From the NCBI GenBank assembly GCA_014238615.1, contig JABAAT010000042.1, positions 1 through 34,287 of the forward strand: a stretch of DNA of 34,287 nt. Direction: 5' to 3'. The DNA comes from Gammaproteobacteria bacterium (GTDB taxonomy: Bacteria; Pseudomonadota; Gammaproteobacteria; Porifericomitales; Porifericomitaceae). The position numbers and the translations under genes were made by a program. Below the pieces are notes generated by a model. That model made no database searches, was not told the origin of the DNA, and saw only the letters and a list, made by a program, of their open reading frames with translations. Position 1 is the stretch's first letter, and each line of letters opens with the position of its first letter. Positions 1 to 34,287 of the stretch are shown here, one piece after another.

Positions 1-74
1 CGGCTAGTCGCGCCTGTCACGAAGTTGTGTTGATGTTTTTACCACACATCGGGAGCCGGGCCGTGCGATTTTCT

Positions 75-1706
75 TCAGGTCGACTTCTTAAGCTGATCGA
101 TGATGCTGGCCTGACCTTTGGCGTCTAGGAGGGCGTCGCCCAGGTTGGCATCACTCAGGTCGGCTCCATCTAAGCGGGCGCCGCGCAGGTCGGCGCTGCA
201 AAGCTGGGCTCTACTCAGGTCGGCCTTATTCAGGTTAGCCCCGCAGAGGTTAGCATCACGCAGGTTGGCACCTTCCGGGTCGCTTTTTTCCAGATCTCTC
301 TCGGACAAGTTGGTCATATTGTCTTTGTCTACGCCATACAGCCTGGCTTTTTTCACCTTGGCTTTTCGCAGATCGACATCGCTTAGTTTGGCACCGCGCA
401 AATCGGCGGCGCGCAGGTCTGCACCGGACATCTTGACCCCTTTCAGGATGGCCCCTCTCAGGATGGCCTTGCTCAGGTTGGCTCCACTCAGATCGGCTAC
501 ACCGGTGACACCAGGCAGTTTGCCGTAATGAACGGAGGCGCCCAAGTAGGCACCACGCAGGTCGGCTCCGCTCAGGTCAGCACGACTCAGCTTGGCGCAG
601 CGGTCTTGTGGAGCTAAACCCATCAAGTTAGCTTTATGCAGGATGGCATTGTTCAGTTTGGCCCCGCGTAGGTCGGCTCCACGGCCCAAGAGGGCACGGC
701 TGAGATTGGCTCCCTCCAGTTTGGCTCCGCGCAGGTCGGCTCCGAGCAGCCAGGCGTCTTCCAGATGGGCTTTGCGCAGATTGGCCTCTTTCAGGTTGGC
801 GTTTTCCAGGTTGGCCTCTTTCAAGTTGGCGCCTTCCAGGTTGGCCTCTTTCAAGTTGGCGCCTTCCAGATGGGCCTTTTCCAAGTTGGCGCCTTCCAGA
901 TGGGCCTCTTCCAGATGGGCGTCTTCCAGATGGGCCTCTTTCAAGTTGGCGCCTTCCAGATGGGCTTTGCGCAGATTGGAACTGCTCAAGTCTTTTCCGC
1001 TCAGGTTTTTCCCGCGCAGATTGGCACCGCTCAGGTCTTTCCTGCTCAGGTCAAGTTTTCGGTATTGTGTTGCTTCCCGTAGCAGGCGGCGCAGCAGGGC
1101 CGGCTCTTCCGGCACGTGTGCCCGGCCGCCGGCGCAGTGTGCCCGCACGATGCGTTGCAGCGTTTCCAGGCAGTGCTGGAAGTCATCGTTTACCACGCGG
1201 TAGTCGTAGTCCGCGGCGTGCCGCAGGTCCGTCTCCAGGTCGTGCATGCGTTCCAGGATCACCTCTTCGCTGTCCTGGCTGCGGCTGTGCAATCGCCGCA
1301 GCAGTTCTTCCGGGGAGGGCGGCAGAATGAAGATGGAGGTGGTTTGCGGGTAATGCTTCCGCAGTGCCGCGGCGCCCTGCCAATCCAGTTCCAGCAGTAG
1401 TCCCCGGTCGGTGTCCATGTGCTCCAGCACGACATTCCGGCTGGTGCCGTAGTGGTTGCCATGTACCACGGCGTGTTCCAGGAATTCCTCGCGGCGCACG
1501 CGTTCCAGGAACTCCGCGCAGTCGATAAAGTGGTATTCCACGCCGTCCTGTTCCCCCTGGCGGCGCGTTCGCGTGGTGTGTGAGATCGTAAAACGCAGCG
1601 TTGGTTCAGCTTCCAGCAGGGCGCGTATCAGGGAGCTTTTACCGCCGCCGGATGGCGCCGAAATCACGAAGAGATTGTCGGTCCCGGTCGGTGTTGTTTT
1701 CGCCAT
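75..1706 (-). CDS. gmk: Guanylate kinase fused to a C-terminal pentapeptide-repeat domain
   Basis: This is one uninterrupted 543-residue frame. Residues 1-212 are a complete guanylate kinase, which phosphorylates GMP to GDP with ATP in the cytoplasm. The visible motifs are the P-loop SAPSGGGKSS (about 16-25), the GMP-binding segment SHTTRTRRQGEQDG (42-55), HYGTSR (85-90) and LELDWQGA (105-112). Ordinary Gmk ends after about 207 residues, at the equivalent of LLRRLLREA. Here the frame runs on for another 320 residues or so of A(D/N)LxG-type pentapeptides, enough for roughly 16 turns of a right-handed quadrilateral beta-helix. The register is broken near GRGADLRG, near VHYGKLPGVTGV and near VDKDNMTN. 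The gene lies 15 bp after an M17 peptidase gene, so the two are probably co-transcribed. rpoZ and spoT, common gmk neighbours, are not visible downstream. The kinase call is firm; the role of the repeat domain is unknown. Confidence 0.93.
   Translation of the reverse strand: MAKTTPTGTDNLFVISAPSGGGKSSLIRALLEAEPTLRFTISHTTRTRRQGEQDGVEYHFIDCAEFLERVRREEFLEHAVVHGNHYGTSRNVVLEHMDTDRGLLLELDWQGAAALRKHYPQTTSIFILPPSPEELLRRLHSRSQDSEEVILERMHDLETDLRHAADYDYRVVNDDFQHCLETLQRIVRAHCAGGRAHVPEEPALLRRLLREATQYRKLDLSRKDLSGANLRGKNLSGKDLSSSNLRKAHLEGANLKEAHLEDAHLEEAHLEGANLEKAHLEGANLKEANLEGANLKEANLENANLKEANLRKAHLEDAWLLGADLRGAKLEGANLSRALLGRGADLRGAKLNNAILHKANLMGLAPQDRCAKLSRADLSGADLRGAYLGASVHYGKLPGVTGVADLSGANLSKAILRGAILKGVKMSGADLRAADLRGAKLSDVDLRKAKVKKARLYGVDKDNMTNLSERDLEKSDPEGANLRDANLCGANLNKADLSRAQLCSADLRGARLDGADLSDANLGDALLDAKGQASIIDQLKKST
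781..960. repeat. 30-bp tandem repeats inside the pentapeptide domain
   Basis: Six consecutive units with a 30-bp period (starts 781, 811, 841, 871, 901, 931) each encode two pentapeptides. The units at 811 and 841 differ at only one base, which points to recent expansion by slippage or unequal recombination. The period is an exact multiple of the codon and of the pentapeptide, so changes in copy number keep the protein in frame. Confidence 0.85.
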
Positions 1707-1721
1707 CGCTCTGCGACCGCT

Positions 1722-3239
1722 TCAGGGTGCTTGCGCACGCCGCGCTCCGGCCCGGTCAAGGCCGATCAGCCGGCGATCCAGGAGCAGATGCAGGGCCAGG
1801 CGCACCCCGAAGCCGGTGCTGGAGGTCGGCACGTGGGCCAGGCCGCCCTTGTGCCGTGCGCTGCCCAGGTCCAGGTGGATCCAGGGCACCTCCGGCGGTA
1901 CGAAATGCCGCAGGAAGCGCGCCGCCAGGATGTGATCCGGCAGGCTGCCGTCCCGGGCGCACTGCCGCAGGTCGGCGATTTGACTCTGCAGCGCCGTGTC
2001 GTAATCCTTGTCCATGGGGAACGGCCAGACACGTTCTCCGCATTCGCTGCCGCCCGCGATCAATTCCGGCAGGAACACCGGCCGGTTGGTGAAGGCCCCG
2101 CTGTACGCGGGGCCCAGGGCGTGGATGCAGGCCCCGGTGAGTGTCGCGAAGTCCAGCATCAGTTGCGGTTTGGCGCGCGCCGCCAGCGTCAGGGTGTCGG
2201 CCAGTACCATGCGTCCCTCCGCATCCGTGTCCACGATTTCGATGGTGCTGCCGTTCAGGGCTTTCACGACATCGTTCGGTTTGTAGGAGCGCGGCCCGAT
2301 CTCATTGCTGGCCAGGGCCAGCCAGCAATCCACCGAGGCGTGCGCCTTGAGCCGTGTCAGCGCGTGCAACACGCCCAGCGCCACCGCACTGCCGGTCATG
2401 TCCTCGTGCATGCCGAACATGTGCCGGGCCGATTTCAGATTGACGCCCCCGGTGTCGTAGCACAGACCCTTGCCGACCAGCGCAATACGCGGGCGGGCTT
2501 TGCCGGAGCCGTGCTCCCAGTGCAGATGCACGATGCCGGACTGCGAGTCCGGGGCGCCCTGCGCCACTGCCGTGAAAGCGCCGGCGCCGCGGCGGCGGAG
2601 GGCGGCCATGTCGAGGAACTCCAGTTTCCAGCCTGCACGCCGTGCCAGGCGCCGTATGTGCCGCAGGTAGATGCGGGGGGTCAAGAGGTTTCCCGGCGTG
2701 GTGCAGAGCGCCCGCGCCAGGCCGTTGCCCGCGGCTTCAGCCAGGCACCGGGCTGCCAGGCGCCGCTCGCGCAGTCCATACAGATGCAATACCTGGGGTG
2801 CCGGGGCGGGTTCCGCCCGCTTCTTGTAGCTTGGCAGGTGCACCGAGCGCGCCAGCGTCGCCGCCAGCAGGGCTTCCGCTACCCGTCGCAGGGCGTTCCC
2901 CTGGAAGCCGAGAGGCACCAGGTGCAGCGCCCCCGAATCAGGCGGTTGCAGTGCACACAGCTTGCGGCATAACTCCAGCAACGCGAAGGTGGAAAGTTCT
3001 CCGACGCGCGCCACGGAGAGCCGTGTGCCGCGTGCGTTGGGCAGCTCCGTGACCAGCAGGGCATTCCCCGGCGCACGCCGCCGCCAGCGCTGCTGCAACA
3101 GCGTCCCGAAAGGTAACTGCTCCCAGGCGGCGTCTTGCGCGAGCAGCAGCATGCAGGCCTGCATGCGGTTCAGCGCCGTTTCCGAGGGGGGTTTCCCATG
3201 CAGCCGGATTTCCGGAAGCTGTCCCGGGAAGTCAAACAT
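1722..3239 (-). CDS. M17-family leucyl aminopeptidase-like protein
   Basis: A 505-residue cytosolic metallopeptidase of the leucyl aminopeptidase (M17) family, which removes N-terminal residues from peptides using two metal ions. The catalytic domain occupies the C-terminal half. It has VGKGLCYDTGG (about 255-265, with the conserved Lys257 and Asp262), HEDMTGSA (278-285) and VDTDAEGR (336-343, with ligands Asp339 and Glu341 and the catalytic Arg343). The family usually reads NTDAEGR, so Asn is replaced by Asp here. The N-terminal domain is divergent and rich in Arg, and the protein may be a M17 subgroup other than PepA. The ATG at 3239 has a weak upstream TTGAGG. The gene is divergent from the Sel1 pair and is followed 15 bp later by the gmk fusion. 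Confidence 0.85.
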   Translation of the reverse strand: MFDFPGQLPEIRLHGKPPSETALNRMQACMLLLAQDAAWEQLPFGTLLQQRWRRRAPGNALLVTELPNARGTRLSVARVGELSTFALLELCRKLCALQPPDSGALHLVPLGFQGNALRRVAEALLAATLARSVHLPSYKKRAEPAPAPQVLHLYGLRERRLAARCLAEAAGNGLARALCTTPGNLLTPRIYLRHIRRLARRAGWKLEFLDMAALRRRGAGAFTAVAQGAPDSQSGIVHLHWEHGSGKARPRIALVGKGLCYDTGGVNLKSARHMFGMHEDMTGSAVALGVLHALTRLKAHASVDCWLALASNEIGPRSYKPNDVVKALNGSTIEIVDTDAEGRMVLADTLTLAARAKPQLMLDFATLTGACIHALGPAYSGAFTNRPVFLPELIAGGSECGERVWPFPMDKDYDTALQSQIADLRQCARDGSLPDHILAARFLRHFVPPEVPWIHLDLGSARHKGGLAHVPTSSTGFGVRLALHLLLDRRLIGLDRAGARRAQAP

Positions 3240-3319
3240 CAGTTAAGACCTCAAGGCCGGGCGCCGGACAGCGGTGCGGCACAGCGGGGACGGGGAGGAT
3301 GGAGTCGCTTTTCAAGCAT

Positions 3320-3345
3320 GAGCACGGCAGGGGAGCACGGCAGGG
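3320..3345. repeat. Perfect 13-bp tandem duplication in the divergent intergenic region
   Basis: GAGCACGGCAGGG occurs twice back to back between the M17 peptidase gene and the Sel1 operon. It could be a double operator, or simply a chance slippage product. No protein partner is evident. Confidence 0.6.
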
Positions 3346-3374
3346 TTTGGGCGGGCGCCGGTGTTCAGGGTTTC

Positions 3375-3403
3375 TTACGTATCGCGCGCGCTTATCATAT
3401 AGT
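3375..3403 (+). promoter_or_regulatory. Possible sigma70 promoter for the Sel1 operon
   Basis: TATAGT (3398-3403) is a good -10 box, 17 bp downstream of TTACGT (3375-3380), a poor -35 box. It stands out in a short AT-rich patch within a GC-rich leader, about 90 bp before the GTG start of the first Sel1 gene. Confidence 0.3.
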
Positions 3404-3496
3404 ATCCGGGCACGTCCCCACCCAGTGCCCCGGCGCGGGCCGCGCGCCGACCAGGGGACGCCTCGGGATCGTCCGCGGACGGAGGAAAAGGATCAA

Positions 3497-4597
3497 GTGA
3501 GAAAATTGCTGTTCGTGTTGTTGCTGATGCTCTCAGGCGCCGTTGCGGCGGCGGCTCCCTCGGCTTCGCCCCTGCAGGAGCTAAGCCGTCCTTCCGGCCC
3601 GGATTCCGCCCCGGTGCCCAGGATGGAGGTCGCGTTACTGAGGCGGCAGGCGCGCGCCGGGGATGCCGAATCGCAGTATGCCCTTGGCCTGTTTCATCTC
3701 GCCGGGGTGGGCGTGCCGCTTGATGACGGTGCGGCGAAGCGCTGGTTCGAGCAGGCGGCGCGCCAGTACCATGCCTCCGCTCAATACAGGCTGGGCCTGA
3801 TGTATCACCAGGGCGGTGCTGCGGACGGCGTCCGGGAGGAAGCCAGGGAGCATGAACTCAGGGAGGCGTTGCGCTGGTATCGTTTGGCGGCGCACCAGGA
3901 CCATGCCGGGGCGCAAAGCAACCTCGGCCTGATGCATTACCAGGGCCTGGGTGTGGAGCGGGACGCCGAGGCGGCGCTTGACTGGTACCTGCGTGCGGCG
4001 CGCCAGGGTCATGCCGAGGCCCAGTACAACCTCGGCCTGATGCATTACCAGGGCGGCGCGGAGAACGTGGGGCCTGGCGATGACGAGGCCTTTCGCTGGC
4101 TCCAGGAAGCAGCGCGCCAGGACTATCCCCCGGCGCAGTACCTGCTCGGTGAGATGTATGCCGCCGGGCGGCTCGGGAAGCCCGACGAAACTGAAGCGCT
4201 GCGTTGGATTCAGCGCGCGGCGCGCCTGGGCCATGCCCGGGCCCAGTACTTACTCGGCGTGATGTACTACATCGGCCAGGGCGGTCTGCCGCGGGATCCA
4301 GGCATGGCCTTGCAGTGGTACACCCTGGCGGCGGAGCGGGGGAATAGCCCGGCGCGTCACAAGCTCGGCCTGATGTATTACCGGGGAAGGGACGTGGAAC
4401 GTGATGCCTATCGGGCGTATCTCTGGCTCGGGCTCGCGGCCGGCGCCGGTTACGAGAAGTCGGTCAAGGTGCTGGATCAGGCAGCGGAGCTGCTTACTCC
4501 TGGACAACTTGCCGAGGCGCGCCGAGAGATTGCGCGCCGCGCCGGGTCCGACGCCGGGGCGCCCGGCCGGCACGCTATAGCGGAGCGGGGCGAGTGA
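3497..4597 (+). CDS. Exported Sel1-repeat (SLR) protein, first of a pair
   Basis: A 366-residue protein starting at GTG 3497, chosen because an AAGGA ribosome site lies just upstream and the product begins with a clean signal peptide (KLLFVLLLMLSGAVAAAA). The rest is seven Sel1-like helical repeats of about 36 residues, recognisable by AxAQYxLGLMYxxG and ALxWYxxAAxQGH. SLR proteins act as protein-interaction scaffolds, often in the periplasm. The exact partner cannot be read from the sequence. The stop overlaps the next gene's start in GTGA, so the two SLR proteins are translationally coupled and probably arose by duplication. A longer frame runs upstream to 3299, but it has no signal peptide and is unlikely to be the real start. 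Confidence 0.85.
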   Translation: MRKLLFVLLLMLSGAVAAAAPSASPLQELSRPSGPDSAPVPRMEVALLRRQARAGDAESQYALGLFHLAGVGVPLDDGAAKRWFEQAARQYHASAQYRLGLMYHQGGAADGVREEAREHELREALRWYRLAAHQDHAGAQSNLGLMHYQGLGVERDAEAALDWYLRAARQGHAEAQYNLGLMHYQGGAENVGPGDDEAFRWLQEAARQDYPPAQYLLGEMYAAGRLGKPDETEALRWIQRAARLGHARAQYLLGVMYYIGQGGLPRDPGMALQWYTLAAERGNSPARHKLGLMYYRGRDVERDAYRAYLWLGLAAGAGYEKSVKVLDQAAELLTPGQLAEARREIARRAGSDAGAPGRHAIAERGE

Positions 4598-6012
4598 GAC
4601 GCTTTCCGATCTTACTCGCCTTGCTGTTGAGTCCGGCGGCGGTCGCCCAGGACGAGGCGGCGACCCCATCCGCGGGGGACATCGATGTCGAGACTGTCGG
4701 AACGACGCGGGAAAAGATTGAGGCGGCCCGGCAGGCCGTGGAGGAAAAGGCTGAAGCGGGAGACGCGGATGCCCAGTACCTGGTGGGAGCCATGTATATC
4801 AAGGGTGAGATCGTGCCGCGCGATAACGCCGAAGCGCTCAAGTGGTGGCGGCGGGCCGCGGCCCAGAGACACGCTCAATCGCAAGCCGCCATCGGTGCCC
4901 TGTACGCGGACGGCCTGGGCGTGCCGCAGGATGATGCTGAGGCTTTGAAATGGCTGCGGCTCGCGGCCAACCAGAACCACGCGCATGCGCAGTATGTCGT
5001 TGGTTCCATGTACGCGATCGGCCGGGGCGCCGAGGCCAGTGACGAAGAGGCCATCAGGTGGTGGAGGAAATCCGCGGAACAAGGCTACGCATTGGCCCAG
5101 TCCGTACTCGGTATCTTGTATGCCGAGGGCGCCGACAAGATCCCGCGTGACACGGACAAGGCCCTGCTTTGGCTGCGGCGCGCCGCGGACCAGGGGAATG
5201 CGGACGCGCAAAACAAGCTGGGCGAGTTGTACGCCCGGGGCCGAGGCGTGGCCCAGGACGAGTCCCAGGCCGCCGCCTGGTTCCACAAGGCGGCGGAGCA
5301 GGGCAATGTGAATGCGCAAAGCAACCTGGGCGGACTCTACGCCGACGGCCGGGGCGTAGAGCGCGATGACGCCAGGTCCGCTGAGTGGCTGCGTAAGGCG
5401 GCGCTCGGAAACCACCCCAAGGCGCAGTACTACCTGGGCCTGATGTATGCCGGCGGCCGAGGCGTGGGACGTGATGAGGCCGAGGCCCTCGGTTGGATCC
5501 GCAAGGCCGCCGAGCGGAATTTAGCCCAGGCGCAGTACCACTTGGGCGGGCTCTACAACAGCGGCGGCGGCGGCGTGGAACAGGATGCGCAAGCGGCCTT
5601 CCAGTGGTTCCGCAAGGCGGCCCTCCAGGGCCATGCCGAGTCACAGCATAATCTCGCCGTGCTGTACCGCATCGGTCGGGGCACGGCGCCCGATCCGGCC
5701 GCAGTCCGCAAGTGGCTGCACCGTTCGGGTGAGGGCGGTTTCGTTCCGGCGCAGCACAAGCTCGGCCTGTTGTACCACCAGGGGGACGGCGTCTCCCGGG
5801 ACCCCTACCAAGCTTACATCTGGCTCTCCCTGGCGCGGGCCGGGGGCTTCAGCCAGGCCGCCGAGGTTCAGGTGGAGGTCTCCGCTTCCCTGACCGAGGA
5901 GCAACGCGCCGAGGCCGACCGGGAAATCACCCGCATCCAGGAACACCTCGGGCGCCCCGAGTCTCCCGTCACATCATCCCCCTCCGCGGCGGAAGGCACC
6001 CCGCAACCGTAA
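4594..6012 (+). CDS. Exported Sel1-repeat (SLR) protein, second of a pair
   Basis: A 472-residue protein with a GTG start that overlaps the previous stop by 4 bp. An N-terminal signal peptide (LLALLLSPAAVAQ, probable cleavage after AVA) is followed by about ten Sel1 repeats covering roughly residues 50-415. Typical units contain AQYYLGLMYAGGRGVGRD and ALGWIRKAAE. The C-terminal tail is rich in Ser, Pro and Thr and probably disordered. Repeat spacing is more regular than in the upstream paralogue. As an exported all-helical repeat protein it is likely to scaffold an envelope complex or sense envelope stress. No enzymatic motif is present and the specific role is unknown. Confidence 0.87.
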   Translation: MRRFPILLALLLSPAAVAQDEAATPSAGDIDVETVGTTREKIEAARQAVEEKAEAGDADAQYLVGAMYIKGEIVPRDNAEALKWWRRAAAQRHAQSQAAIGALYADGLGVPQDDAEALKWLRLAANQNHAHAQYVVGSMYAIGRGAEASDEEAIRWWRKSAEQGYALAQSVLGILYAEGADKIPRDTDKALLWLRRAADQGNADAQNKLGELYARGRGVAQDESQAAAWFHKAAEQGNVNAQSNLGGLYADGRGVERDDARSAEWLRKAALGNHPKAQYYLGLMYAGGRGVGRDEAEALGWIRKAAERNLAQAQYHLGGLYNSGGGGVEQDAQAAFQWFRKAALQGHAESQHNLAVLYRIGRGTAPDPAAVRKWLHRSGEGGFVPAQHKLGLLYHQGDGVSRDPYQAYIWLSLARAGGFSQAAEVQVEVSASLTEEQRAEADREITRIQEHLGRPESPVTSSPSAAEGTPQP

Positions 6013-29581: not shown

Positions 29582-30187
29582 TCAGGGTGACGCGCGGTCG
29601 GCGTAGCACCGCCTCACCCAGTGGTCCACGCTGCAGTAACGCCCGGCCCCCCAGAAGAACAATGTCAGCAGCATGATCAGGTAGGTGACCGGGAACTCGA
29701 GGCCGTTGGTCAGGATGACGAATGGACCGTGTTCGGTCAGCCAGGACTCCCTGCCGTGGCGTCTCAGGACCTGCCTGCCCTGGTCGGTACGAACCTTGAT
29801 GGCCTGGGCGTCTTCCGCGGTGTGCATCAGTACCGGGTTGGGCTGAGTCTGGCCGATGGCGTACCAGCCCTTGTCCCAGTGCACGGTGTAGGCGGCTATG
29901 ACCATGGTGAACATCAGCGGCAGACTGATCCAGCGCGTGCAGAAACCCACCAGCAGCAGGAAGGCGCCGACAAATTCGGTGAGACTGGCCAGCCAGTACA
30001 TCAGCGTCGGCAGGGGGAGCTCCAGGCTCTCACTGAACCAGCGGATGGTACTTTCAGGATTCTGCAATTTGCGCCAGCCGGCCATCAGGAAGATGGGAAA
30101 CAGGTAGAGGCGCAACGCCAGGGGCGCCAGGAAGTCAACACCACGGGTGCTGTCCAGTAATGCTTGTGCCTTCAGCAGGAGTTTCAT
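29582..30187 (-). CDS. hvfX: DoxX-family protein of the HvfX type
   Basis: A 201-residue DoxX-like membrane protein with four hydrophobic helices. The N-terminal LALRLYLFPIFLMAGWRKLQN is the usual DoxX start. MYWLASLTEFVGAFLLLVGF and SLPLMFTMVIAAYTVHWDKG follow, and the C-terminal ILTNGLEFPVTYLIMLLTLF closes it. A polar loop of about 50 residues lies between helices 3 and 4. Such DoxX proteins are regular members of HvfA-type copper-RiPP clusters and are named HvfX, but their biochemical role is not known. The gene is 73 bp after the glutamate-synthase-like gene. Confidence 0.83.
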   Translation of the reverse strand: MKLLLKAQALLDSTRGVDFLAPLALRLYLFPIFLMAGWRKLQNPESTIRWFSESLELPLPTLMYWLASLTEFVGAFLLLVGFCTRWISLPLMFTMVIAAYTVHWDKGWYAIGQTQPNPVLMHTAEDAQAIKVRTDQGRQVLRRHGRESWLTEHGPFVILTNGLEFPVTYLIMLLTLFFWGAGRYCSVDHWVRRCYADRASP

Positions 30188-30260
30188 GTGGGTTCTCTCA
30201 TGAGGGTTTGTGAATAGGGCCCAGGGTACGAAGGTGGATACGGGTGTGTCCGCGGTTGGT

Positions 30261-31784
30261 TTACGAAATGCCCGGGTGGGATGCGGGCGTGGCCTCGGCT
30301 GGCGCGGCGGCGCTTAACTCCGGGTGCAACTCGTCCAGGGGAATCGAGAGGCCGTTCTGCATGACCACCCGGGCGTGGTAGCGGCGCAGGCGGCGCGGCG
30401 TGGGGACACCGCAGGAGTGCGCGATGATGCAGACCTCCTTGCTCAGGTTGCGCGCGTAGTTTGCAACCCGCTGCGCCTTGTCTTCCGGCACCAGGCCCTT
30501 CTGCAGGCGTAGATTGTGCGTGGTGATGCCGGTGGGGCAGGTGTTCTTGTTGCATTGCAGGGCCTGGATGCAGCCCAGGGCGAACATGAAGCCGCGCGCC
30601 GAGACTGTGAAATCAGCGCCCACGCACAGGGCCCATGCCACGTCGGCGGGCGTGACCAACTTGCCCGAGGCGATCACCCGGATGCGCTCGCGCAGCCCAT
30701 ACTCTTTCAGCTTATCCACCACCAGCGGCAGGCTTTCCTTGAGCGGCAGACCCACGGCGTCGATAAGCGGCATGGGGGCGGCGCCGGTGCCGCCCTCGGC
30801 CCCGTCCACGGTGATGAAGTCAGGCGCCGTTTCCAGTCCACGCGCCACGATCTCCTTGAACAGCACGTCCAGCCAGCCGTAGGCGCCGATCACCGCCTTG
30901 AACCCGGTGGGTTTGCCCGTGATGTTGCGCACCCTTTCGAGCATCACCAGCAAATCCTCATGGCTGTTGATCTCCGGATGGCGGTTGGGGCTGAGCGAAT
31001 CATGTCCCGGGGTAATTCCCCGGATGTGCGCGATCTCCTCTGTCACCTTGCCGCCCGGGAGGATACCGCCCTTGCCCGGCTTGGCGCCCTGGCTGAGCTT
31101 CAATTCGAACATCCGCACCTGGTCGTGGGAGGCCACTTCGCGCAGCTTGTCATCATCCAGACCGCCGTCCTTGTCGCGCACGCCGTACTTGGCCGTGCCG
31201 ATCTGGAAGATGATGTCCGCGCCGCCCGCCAGGTGGTGTGGCGACAGGCCGCCCTCGCCGGTGTTCATCCAGCAGCCGGCCATGCGCGCGCCCGAGGAGA
31301 GCGCCAGCACGGCCGGCTTGGAGATGGCGCCGTAGCTCATGCCGGAGATGTTGCAGATGGAGTTCGTGGTGTAAGGATGTTTGCAGTCGGTGCCGAGGGT
31401 GATTTCTTCTGGCTGACTGGCGTCGCTGGCCAGGGTCGGATAGGGGCAGTTCACGAACAGCACCGTGCCGATGGGGTTCAGATCGCGTGTGGAGCCGAAG
31501 GCCACCGTGTTACTGATGTCCTTGGCGGCCCGGTAGGTCCAGCTGCGCTGCGCCCGGTTGAAGGGCATTTCCTCGCGATCCATGGAGAAGAAGTACTGCC
31601 TGAAGAATTCGCCCATGTGTTCAAAGAGGTAGCGGAAGCGCCCGACGACCGGGAAATTGCGCCGCACCGCGTGCTGGGTTTGGGTGACGTCGATGATAAA
31701 CAGTACGATCACGACCAGCACCACGGCGCCGATGGCGAAGATAAACAGGGCCGCCATGATCTCGATGAGGTTGACTACGTCCAT
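30261..31784 (-). CDS. Membrane-anchored FMN/Fe-S glutamate-synthase-like oxidoreductase
   Basis: A 507-residue protein related to the FMN-binding synthase domain of the glutamate synthase large subunit (GltB). An N-terminal membrane helix (MAALFIFAIGAVVLVVIVLF) anchors it. The catalytic barrel has GMSYGAISKPAVLALSSGA, GEGGLSPHH, QGAKPGKGGILPG, SHEDLLVMLERV, DGAEGGTGAAP and the Cys triad CIQALQCNKNTC, which matches the 3Fe-4S site of GltB. There is no glutaminase domain and no partner small subunit here, so it is unlikely to make glutamate in the classical way. It lies 14 bp after hvfC and is probably part of the Hvf operon. A redox role in the maturation of the peptide is a guess. Confidence 0.83.
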   Translation of the reverse strand: MDVVNLIEIMAALFIFAIGAVVLVVIVLFIIDVTQTQHAVRRNFPVVGRFRYLFEHMGEFFRQYFFSMDREEMPFNRAQRSWTYRAAKDISNTVAFGSTRDLNPIGTVLFVNCPYPTLASDASQPEEITLGTDCKHPYTTNSICNISGMSYGAISKPAVLALSSGARMAGCWMNTGEGGLSPHHLAGGADIIFQIGTAKYGVRDKDGGLDDDKLREVASHDQVRMFELKLSQGAKPGKGGILPGGKVTEEIAHIRGITPGHDSLSPNRHPEINSHEDLLVMLERVRNITGKPTGFKAVIGAYGWLDVLFKEIVARGLETAPDFITVDGAEGGTGAAPMPLIDAVGLPLKESLPLVVDKLKEYGLRERIRVIASGKLVTPADVAWALCVGADFTVSARGFMFALGCIQALQCNKNTCPTGITTHNLRLQKGLVPEDKAQRVANYARNLSKEVCIIAHSCGVPTPRRLRRYHARVVMQNGLSIPLDELHPELSAAAPAEATPASHPGIS

Positions 31785-31798
31785 AATTGCGTTCTCGT

Positions 31799-32590
31799 TT
31801 AATGGGTGTGTTGGCTGCGGCGGGTTCCGAGCAGGGCCGTCGCGCGGCGCATGCGGGTGAGCAGGGTGACGCCTCCGTCCAGGACCTGCCGCGGCTCCGG
31901 GTGGTGTAGTTCAGCGGCGACCATGCGCAGCAGTTCGCGTCCGTTGAGCGTTGGCCGTTCGTCTATCAGGTCCACGAGCCGCGCCGCGACCCGGTTCAGT
32001 TTCAGGAAACGTACTTTGCCGTCCGGACGCCGGAACAGCCAGAGGTAGGTCGGTTCCCGCCCCGGCGTCGCGGGCCGAAAGGATGAGTTGATGCGTTGTA
32101 CGGGAAATTGGAAGCCCAGGCGATACGCGACCTGGTTGGGGAAGGGCGGGGCCGCCAGCAGGTCGCCTTTTGCGTCCACTTGTTCCGCCGGGGCCGCTTC
32201 CCGCGGGTCGAAGAACAGGGAACCCTGTGCCCACTCGAAGCGGGCCAGGTCTGTCAGAAAGGGGGGGTCGCCGGGCTCCGGCCGGTAGCCCTCCTCCAGG
32301 TATTTCAGAAATTCGCCCGCGAGGCGCGGGAAATAAGGGGTGCGCGCCTGGTGTCGGCGAAAGTAATCGCGCATCAGGGCGTGCCAGCGCGTTTCGTCAA
32401 GCATGTTTCGCAGAACCGGAAAGCTGCGCCGCATGAGGCCTTCCACGTTGTTATAGAACAGCCTCCGGTAGATGCGCATGCGTCGCTCCTCCACGTCGGA
32501 GGGCGCGGCGCAATGCTCCGGGTCCCGCAGATGCCGGGTGAAGGCGCGCTGCACTTCCAGGTGCGAGGGGGGTTGAGATGATGTCGCCAT
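31799..32590 (-). CDS. hvfC: HvfC, DUF2063 partner protein of the MNIO maturase
   Basis: A 263-residue DUF2063 protein. The N-terminal domain has QRAFTRHLRDP and RMRIYRRLFYNNVEGLMRRSFPVLRNML (family start), followed by DYFRRHQARTPYFPRLAGEF and FLTDLARFEWAQ. The C-terminal domain (YLWLFRRPDGKVRFLKLN, then LVDLIDERPTLNGRELL) resembles a peptide-binding PqqD-like winged fold, which would help present the precursor peptide to HvfB. This binding role is inferred from related clusters. It starts 11 bp after hvfB ends and is 14 bp before the glutamate-synthase-like gene. Confidence 0.9.
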   Translation of the reverse strand: MATSSQPPSHLEVQRAFTRHLRDPEHCAAPSDVEERRMRIYRRLFYNNVEGLMRRSFPVLRNMLDETRWHALMRDYFRRHQARTPYFPRLAGEFLKYLEEGYRPEPGDPPFLTDLARFEWAQGSLFFDPREAAPAEQVDAKGDLLAAPPFPNQVAYRLGFQFPVQRINSSFRPATPGREPTYLWLFRRPDGKVRFLKLNRVAARLVDLIDERPTLNGRELLRMVAAELHHPEPRQVLDGGVTLLTRMRRATALLGTRRSQHTH

Positions 32591-32601
32591 GCGGAGCGCC
32601 G

Positions 32602-33528
32602 TTATGCCACGCGCGCCTGGAAGCGCTGCTGCAGATGCCTGATGTGCTCGACTTCCCCCAGCAGCTCATCCAGGGGCGGGAAATTGAAGTCGCGCTCCAG
32701 CAGGGTGGGGAAGGGGCCGAAGTGCTGGTAGGCGCTTTCCAGCAGTTCCCATACCGGATCGCAGACCGGCGCCCCATGCGTATCAATGCGTAGGTCTTCG
32801 GCTTCCTTGTAGTGTCCGGCGATATGCGCGTAGGCAATGCGCCCGGCCGGCAGCGACCGCAGGAAAGCGCGTGCATCGTAGTGATGGTTGATGCTGTTGA
32901 CGTAGATGTTGTTGATATCCAGAAGCAGGTCGCAGTCGGCCTGCTCCAGCACCTTGAGCAGGAACTCCAACTCGCCCAGTTCTCGCCCCGGAGCCGCGTA
33001 GTAGGAGATGTTCTCAACAGCGATGCGGCGTTCCAGGAGCTCCTGGACCCGACGGATGCGGCGTGCGCAGTGCTCCACGGCCGCGCTCGTGAAAGGAATG
33101 GGCATGAGGTCGTAGAGATGACCGTCGTCCCCGCAGTAGCTAAGGTGCTCGCTGTAACAACGCACCTGGAAGCGATCCAGGAATTCGCGGACGTTCAGCA
33201 GGAATTTTTCGTCCAGGGGGGCCCAGCCACCCAGATTGAGCGACAGGCCGTGGCAGACCAGGGGCACCTTGGAAGCCACCTTGCGCAGATCGCGCCCGTG
33301 TACGCCGCCCACGCCGACCCAGTTTTCCGGGGCCAGTTCCATGAAGGAAAGAACGGGTGGAACGGACTCGGCGATGCGCCGGGAGAAACTGCGCCGCAGT
33401 CCGAGCCCCGCCCCGCTGAGGTCGGCGGCGGATGGCCCGGAAGATGACCGTGCGCTTTTGCGGGAGTTTTGCCTGCCGGAACCGGAGGCGGCCACGGGAG
33501 TCAGCTTCCGCACTTGCCTTCGCCGCAT
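32602..33528 (-). CDS. hvfB: HvfB, MNIO (DUF692) multinuclear iron RiPP maturase
   Basis: A 308-residue TIM-barrel enzyme of the MNIO family. Characterised relatives use a mixed-valent iron cluster and O2 to turn Cys residues of EGKCG motifs into oxazolone/thioamide pairs that bind copper. Candidate ligands and family motifs are FMELAPENW (62-70), [10 protein letters not shown] (92-101), YSEHLSY (125-131), VENIS (171-175), DINNIYVN (204-211), AHIAGHY (234-240), DTHG (249-252) and LLERDFN. The ATG at 33528 lies inside the last codons of hvfA in another frame, so the genes overlap by 28 bp and are probably coupled. This start adds about 38 Arg/Ser-rich residues before the normal barrel start (GAGLGLRR). 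In-frame GTG codons at residues 6 and 12 are alternatives. Confidence 0.93.
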
Positions 33529-34037
33529 TGTCCTTCGGCGTCGTCGGCGTCCGGCCGGTGGCCAGTTGTCTCAGTACCCTCGCCGCCCTTACTCTCGCCG
33601 CACTTTCCTTCGCCGCACTTGCCTTCGGTGGAGACGGTATTGGAGCCGCACTTTCCTTCGCCGCATTGTCCCTCGGCAGTGTCGTCAGCGTCAGTACCCT
33701 CGCCGCCCTTACTCTCACCGCACTTTCCTTCGCCGCACTTGCCTTCAGTGGAGACGGTATTGGAGCCGCACTTTCCTTCGCCGCATTGTCCCTCGGCGGT
33801 GTCTTCACCGTGGGTACCCGCGCCAGCGCCGGCCAAGGCAGGGGCAACCCCTCGAGGGCGCAACTCGAAGGGATTTCCCCTTGGCGCGCGCCCAAGCGCA
33901 CGCCAAGGGGTTGGGTGGGACTCAGCGCCTGGCGGCGCGAAATCCTGCATCCCTGCCGCCGGGTCCTCTCCCAGGGAAACCGCGAAACAAAGACCGACCG
34001 CGGTGGCCAAGGGTTTTAGCTTGTTGCGCCTGGCCAC
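33501..34037 (-). CDS. hvfA: HvfA-type copper-RiPP precursor with interrupted leader
   Basis: A 178-residue precursor starting at GTG 34037; an in-frame stop lies eight codons upstream, so this is the only reasonable start. The N-terminus ([20 protein letters not shown]) is a typical HvfA signal sequence, but instead of an AxA site the frame enters about 50 Pro/Arg-rich residues of different composition ([20 protein letters not shown], partial). The C-terminal core has five EGxCGEGKCG motifs, ten Cys in total, with spacers SNTVST and ESKGGEGT. In the family such EGKCG motifs are modified by HvfB and bind Cu(I). The ribosome site is weak (CAGGG). The gene overlaps hvfB by 28 bp and lies 55 bp after another precursor gene. 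Confidence 0.87.
33571..33810. repeat. 120-bp tandem duplication in the HvfA core
   Basis: The unit 33571-33690 is repeated at 33691-33810 with five mismatches. Each unit encodes 40 residues with two double-Cys motifs. A partial third copy is seen toward 33510-33540. The duplication keeps frame and doubles the number of modifiable sites. Confidence 0.9.
33848..33910. repeat. Palindromic insert-like segment in the hvfA leader region
   Basis: CCCCTTGGCG (33877-33886) and CGCCAAGGGG (33901-33910) form a perfect 10-bp inverted repeat with a 14-base loop. A second stem, CCCCTCGAG (33848-33856) with CTCGAAGGG (33863-33871), has one mismatch. Two adjacent hairpins in a translated stretch unlike the HvfA family suggest a REP-like or Rickettsia-palindromic-element-like insertion. 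Its limits may be near 33830 and 33975; no clear target duplication is seen. Confidence 0.5.
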
Positions 34038-34070
34038 GGTTGATATTGGGAACCCTGATTAGCCGTGGCC
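34032..34070 (-). promoter_or_regulatory. Hairpin holding the hvfA start codon
   Basis: On the coding strand GGCCACGG (34070-34063) can pair with CCGTGGCC (34039-34032) across a 23-base loop. The second arm contains the GTG start codon, so the stem would hide it while the CAGGG ribosome site stays in the loop. It could lower translation of this precursor relative to the upstream one, or simply mark a processing site between them. Confidence 0.5.
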
Positions 34071-34092
34071 GTCTTTGTCCTTGCTGGCGTGG

Positions 34093-34287
34093 TTATTCGC
34101 CGCCGCAGGAACCTTCACCGCAAGAGCCTTCGCCTTCGCCTTTGTCTTTGTCTTTGCCTTTGCCTTTGCCTTCGCCTTCGCCGCAGGAACCTTCACCGCA
34201 AGAGCCTTCGCCTTCGCCCTTGGCCTGGCCGCCGCCGCCTACGCCGCAGGCACCTTCACCGCAGGAGCCGTCGCCTTCGCCCTTGGC
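34093..34287 (-). CDS. Second HvfA-like Cys-rich precursor, 5' end outside the window
   Basis: The last 64 residues of a frame that runs off the window edge, ending at TAA 34093-34095. The visible part is made of EGSCGEGSCGE-type modules: DGSCGEGACG, EGSCGEGSCG, a charged linker KGKGKDKDKGEGEG, then EGSCGEGSCGGE. There are six Cys, in pairs spaced five residues apart exactly as in HvfA, but with Ser or Ala in place of the Lys before Cys. It is most likely a paralogous substrate of the same HvfB. Signal sequence and promoter are not visible. An alternative reading as a chance low-complexity glycine-rich protein is unlikely given its position. Confidence 0.8.
   Translation of the reverse strand, partial: AKGEGDGSCGEGACGVGGGGQAKGEGEGSCGEGSCGEGEGKGKGKDKDKGEGEGSCGEGSCGGE

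Follow-up and report, generated by a model that had tools for sequence, protein, structure and literature searches.

A guanylate kinase gene that runs in frame into a pentapeptide-repeat array in a gammaproteobacterial genome

The locus lies at one end of a 34,287-nucleotide contig (C34), taken here as a whole and referred to as the window, from a host genome of 1.67 Mb in 75 contigs (99.27% complete, 0.41% contamination). We identified on the minus strand a single unbroken reading frame of 543 aa with 0 internal stops, opening with ATG at 1706 and closing with a stop codon at 75-77, which encodes a guanylate kinase (Gmk) and, directly after it, a long array of pentapeptide repeats (Table 1). 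Pfam and NCBIfam matches bore out the claim of the first-pass annotation that a complete Gmk with preserved motifs continues in frame into such repeats. The junction, which had been placed at about position 1060, falls between R216 and K217 (window positions 1059 and 1058), and the array, put at about 320 residues, is long and in frame as described but spans about 310 (residues 217-526, approximately).

The M17 gene upstream occupies the position that yicC has before gmk in two relatives of the same family (G002 and G003); here yicC is found on contig C28. Two adjacent genes for Sel1-repeat proteins (432 and 472 aa, 3299-6012, plus strand) stand beside this pepA-gmk pair, and a likely copper-binding RiPP (HvfA/bufferin-like) cluster occupies positions 29582-34287 of the minus strand, with a second, EGSCG-repeat ORF running past the contig end. 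On the other side, the contig breaks 74 nt past the fusion gene. Positions 1-141 of the window are an exact overlap with L068 11023-11163, and an exact 141-nt overlap is typical of a k=141 assembly graph at a branch. Read across the overlap, rpoZ starts about 220 nt after the fusion stop and is followed by spoT; gmk, rpoZ and spoT stand in the same order in G002 and G003. Apart from the array inserted behind gmk, the locus thus retains the canonical gmk-rpoZ-spoT order. The branch at the overlap node implies an alternative assembly path; this branch, at the array's 3' end, possibly reflects strain variation within the array.

Table 1. Features of the window, with their positions and the evidence or context for each.
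Feature	Position	Strand	Evidence or context
Contig end	1..141	.	identical to the last 141 nt of contig C70 (rpoZ and spoT downstream)
gmk-pentapeptide fusion ORF	75..1706	-	ORF translation, Pfam and NCBIfam; sole PF00625 match in the genome
Predicted C-terminal helix, residues 529-542	81..122	-	single-sequence AF2, low confidence, pLDDT about 47-61
Pentapeptide-repeat array, about residues 217-526	129..1058	-	PF00805, 15-nt register, AF2, Foldseek
Junction R216-K217 (CGA AAA)	1056..1061	-	alignment of Gmk C-termini
Gmk part, residues 1-216	1059..1706	-	Pfam, TIGR03263, invariant columns, AF2, Foldseek
Pfam Guanylate_kin domain, residues 11-189	1140-1676	-	E 5e-45
P-loop APSGGGKSS, residues 17-25	1632-1658	-	in the Gmk part of the fusion
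M17 leucyl-aminopeptidase-type gene	1722..3239	-	15 nt upstream of gmk, probable operon
DoxX gene	29582-30187	-	likely RiPP cluster
DUF2063 gene	31799-32590	-	likely RiPP cluster
MNIO/DUF692 enzyme	32602-33528	-	PF05114, E 8e-102; likely RiPP cluster
Cys-rich EGKCG-repeat ORF	33501-34037	-	likely RiPP cluster

Gmk, which every cell needs in order to make GTP, is essential in bacteria, where it is compact and usually has a single domain. The Gmk part of the fusion scored 214.5 bits against the TIGR03263 guanyl_kin equivalog (cut-off 160.45), covering model positions 2-179 of 180, and retained all 38 of the columns invariant in an alignment of 14 Gmks, among them the P-loop, the GMP-binding Ser/Arg/Tyr/Glu and the DWQG motif. 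An AF2 model computed with six viral-contig Gmks as alignment gave residues 11-220 a pLDDT mostly of 80-96, the tail being poor, and a Foldseek search with the Gmk model returned P. aeruginosa Gmk (E 3e-19). Judged by its conserved residues, the Gmk domain is complete and the protein is probably an active kinase. A PF00625 search of the whole host genome found no match besides the fusion ORF, which answers the earlier question of whether another gmk exists in this 99.27% complete genome; we thus rejected a duplication in which a spare unfused gmk would have been retained.

In the tail, PF00805 matched nine stretches with an E-value of 2e-71, stronger evidence for the array than the probability that a run of 330 codons lacks stops by chance (P about 1.5e-4 at the base composition of the window). 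The first repeat, KLDLS, follows directly after R216 and opens a very regular first stretch; the register comprises 22 units of five residues from residue 217 (15 nt at the DNA level), and the second half has short breaks near residues 363-371, 390-404 and 451-467. Single-sequence AF2 predicted a right-handed quadrilateral beta-helix, best at residues about 251-360 (pLDDT 70-85); elsewhere in the tail confidence was low, the helix was poorly recovered in the second model, and residues 360-526 were poorly predicted in both. In the structure prediction of the full chain, which the first-pass annotation had proposed, the Gmk fold and a beta-helix in part of the tail emerged from separate AF2 models, neither of which rendered both well. 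Foldseek with the tail model placed designed pentapeptide (beta1) solenoids and HetL first and also returned NP275-NP276. Independent folding is established for pentapeptide rods as a family, and the tail may form a rod over its whole length.

Alignment of Gmk C-termini showed how closely the two parts abut. The G002 protein ends in LSALMEEARHFR followed by a stop and the window reads LRRLLREATQYRKLDLS, and the first codon of the array aligns with the stop codon of this same-family Gmk (ARHFR, then stop). Codons 198-240 of the fusion contain no in-frame ATG, GTG or TTG, and the junction retains no intergenic or ribosome-binding remnant, which fits the arrival of a repeat segment by insertion or recombination better than a simple loss of the stop. 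A pentapeptide-coding segment, like the free-standing genes of the host, would have entered the interval between gmk and rpoZ and taken the place of the gmk stop, so that the frame now runs from the final gmk codon straight into the repeats. Other pentapeptide genes of the genome are located on contigs C26, C63, C47 and C3. By BLASTP the free-standing proteins of C26 and C63 are about 42-51% identical to the tail over 170-230 residues, an identity that involves repeats and therefore indicates likeness rather than proving direct descent. In G002, pentapeptide arrays occur within large proteins (709-801 aa), one of which weakly matches NACHT/AAA; together with the host paralogs, these large proteins suggest that arrays serve as movable parts in the lineage. 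Pentapeptide proteins of the family (L059 3754-4365, L086 1562-3691 and L087 446-2794) have a similar C-terminal segment (RISKDSDFKDVIFAGGL / SIGRDADLSAIVFAGGL), which comes after the repeats and contains no Pfam match.

The Gmks of the same family are ordinary, with 223 aa in G001 and 212 aa in G002 and G003, all three from other genera. When the whole fusion protein was searched against a class sample of 369 genomes and an overlapping phylum sample of 399, no second two-domain match came up: the other matches listed end between about query residues 179 and 241, and among these listed matches the ones reaching well past residue 216 get there by way of their own stop codons. GTDB r220 contigs, scanned by a pattern-based method that detects close relatives only, returned two pentapeptide-only relatives and no fusion, and the viral contigs held no relatives of the tail. 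The search for Gmk plus pentapeptide architectures in related genomes that had been proposed for this locus therefore produced no second case in the class and phylum samples, the fusion is a singleton among the genomes searched, and we rejected the idea that it is widespread in the class or phylum. The first-pass annotation had held that absence from all close relatives would refute the fusion; this absence was found, but since the three nearest genomes belong to other genera and the genomes searched all lie outside the genus of the host, it does not refute the fusion itself. The first-pass annotation knew of no described Gmk with this partner, in agreement with a literature search, whose reach excluded most subscription papers and which found no paper with both "guanylate kinase" and "pentapeptide repeat". 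In the same genome samples, G053 has a second guanylate-kinase-like match in an 856-aa frame that starts with a P-loop segment (L061 3384-5954). Three class genomes of 97-98% completeness (G007, G019 and G254) are without a PF00625 match among the matches listed, either because of assembly gaps or because their Gmk has diverged or been replaced.

The first-pass annotation had linked the tail to DNA mimicry and to gyrase. MfpA and Qnr are described as working through a DNA-like electrostatic surface (PMC8145042), whereas the tail has 52 K/R and 46 D/E, a net charge of +6 and a pI of 9.05 (values of overall sequence charge rather than of a calculated surface); the main paralogs, the free-standing proteins of C26 and C63, are acidic (pI 4.65 and 4.31). 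The tail scored 86.4 bits against the Qnr equivalog (cut-off 240) and 80.9 bits against that of MfpA (cut-off 360). Its basic character strips the gyrase idea of its main support, and we rejected a DNA mimic on charge.

The best reading of the locus is lineage-specific domain accretion onto a working Gmk. We lean with moderate confidence to a real fusion of this kind, in which the rod would be a passive scaffold for binding, localisation or oligomerisation rather than a DNA mimic. Scaffold roles are listed for pentapeptide domains in other multidomain enzymes (PMC8145042), and cyanobacteria are known to have Ser/Thr kinases that carry pentapeptide repeats at the C-terminus (PMC1262709). By the example of these proteins a scaffold, localisation or oligomerisation role is favoured and plausible, and the rod would act passively, in the manner described for the pentapeptide domains of other multidomain enzymes. 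The main rival to this role is a neutral one, in which the array would be an extension without function that the cell tolerates, acquired when gmk joined a neighbouring pentapeptide gene by chance and bringing Gmk no benefit. Such an origin would suit a singleton fusion, the varied tails that Gmk C-termini accept (those of G001 and G002 differ) and a rod able to fold alone, but it leaves about 330 extra codons staying open on an essential gene, and the array begins directly at the old stop, without the intergenic or ribosome-binding remnant expected from simple stop loss; we consider it rather unlikely, though a serious contender.

Less probable still is a tail with a job of its own, with gyrase, RNA polymerase or a membrane partner for example, that would regulate or position Gmk and so tie GTP supply to that partner. 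The gene does stand within a gmk-rpoZ-spoT operon, and mycobacterial MfpA, an effector of the GTPase MfpB, sets an example of a pentapeptide protein under guanine-nucleotide control (PMC9769811). However, the tail is basic rather than DNA-like and acidic, its nearest solved structures are designed solenoids and HetL rather than Qnr or MfpA, and the operon context is ancestral rather than new, and we regard this explanation as improbable. It is similarly doubtful that the rod ties the sole GMP kinase to one particular partner or assembly and thereby couples the supply of GTP, and of ppGpp through the neighbouring SpoT, to that place. We know of no earlier case in which a beta-helix arm controls a housekeeping nucleotide kinase, and this one, if real, would be the first.

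Finally, that an indel or a chimaeric join makes two neighbouring genes look like a single one is highly improbable: the assembly is a draft of 75 contigs whose graph branches at the contig break 74 nt after the gene, but the stretch from codon 198 to codon 240, where the repeats begin, offers no start to a separate repeat gene, the array lies with intact flanks between two anchors that belong together (gmk and the correct rpoZ-spoT flank), which argues against a chimaera, and no exact repeat of the gene region exceeds 36 nt, too little to mislead an assembly with 141-nt overlaps. The fusion is thus very probably real.

The role of enzyme-attached pentapeptide domains is, according to a review, a largely open question (PMC8145042), and the fusion offers a clean natural construct for asking what such domains do. 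Moreover, a sole-copy Gmk whose tail exceeds the enzyme in length illustrates the amount of unrelated structure that Gmk can accept, and, should the rod have a partner, GTP supply would be linked to that partner.

Compared with bacterial Gmk (PF00625, TIGR03263), the fusion is alike in its full domain, its invariant residues and its downstream gmk-rpoZ-spoT order, and its Gmk part is about 46-50% identical to solved Gmks (P. aeruginosa 7u5f/8egl, E. coli 2an9); whereas an ordinary Gmk has about 205-225 aa, the fusion runs on for another 327 residues. With free-standing PF00805 proteins (HetL 3du1, NP275-NP276 2j8k) the tail shares A(D/N)LXX repeats and a predicted quadrilateral beta-helix but it does not stand alone as they do, being fused to the C-terminus of an essential nucleotide kinase. 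The predicted repeat fold is also common to the gyrase protectors Qnr, MfpA and AlbG, from which the tail differs in being basic and in falling far under the Qnr and MfpA equivalog cut-offs. A catalytic and a pentapeptide domain are likewise joined in one chain in the E3 ligases SopA and NleL and in cyanobacterial Ser/Thr kinases (PMC8145042, PMC1262709), and in the latter the repeats are C-terminal, as in the fusion (PMC1262709). These proteins have other catalytic folds, none being an essential housekeeping nucleotide kinase present as a single copy, and what is new among the known multidomain pentapeptide proteins is Gmk as the partner.
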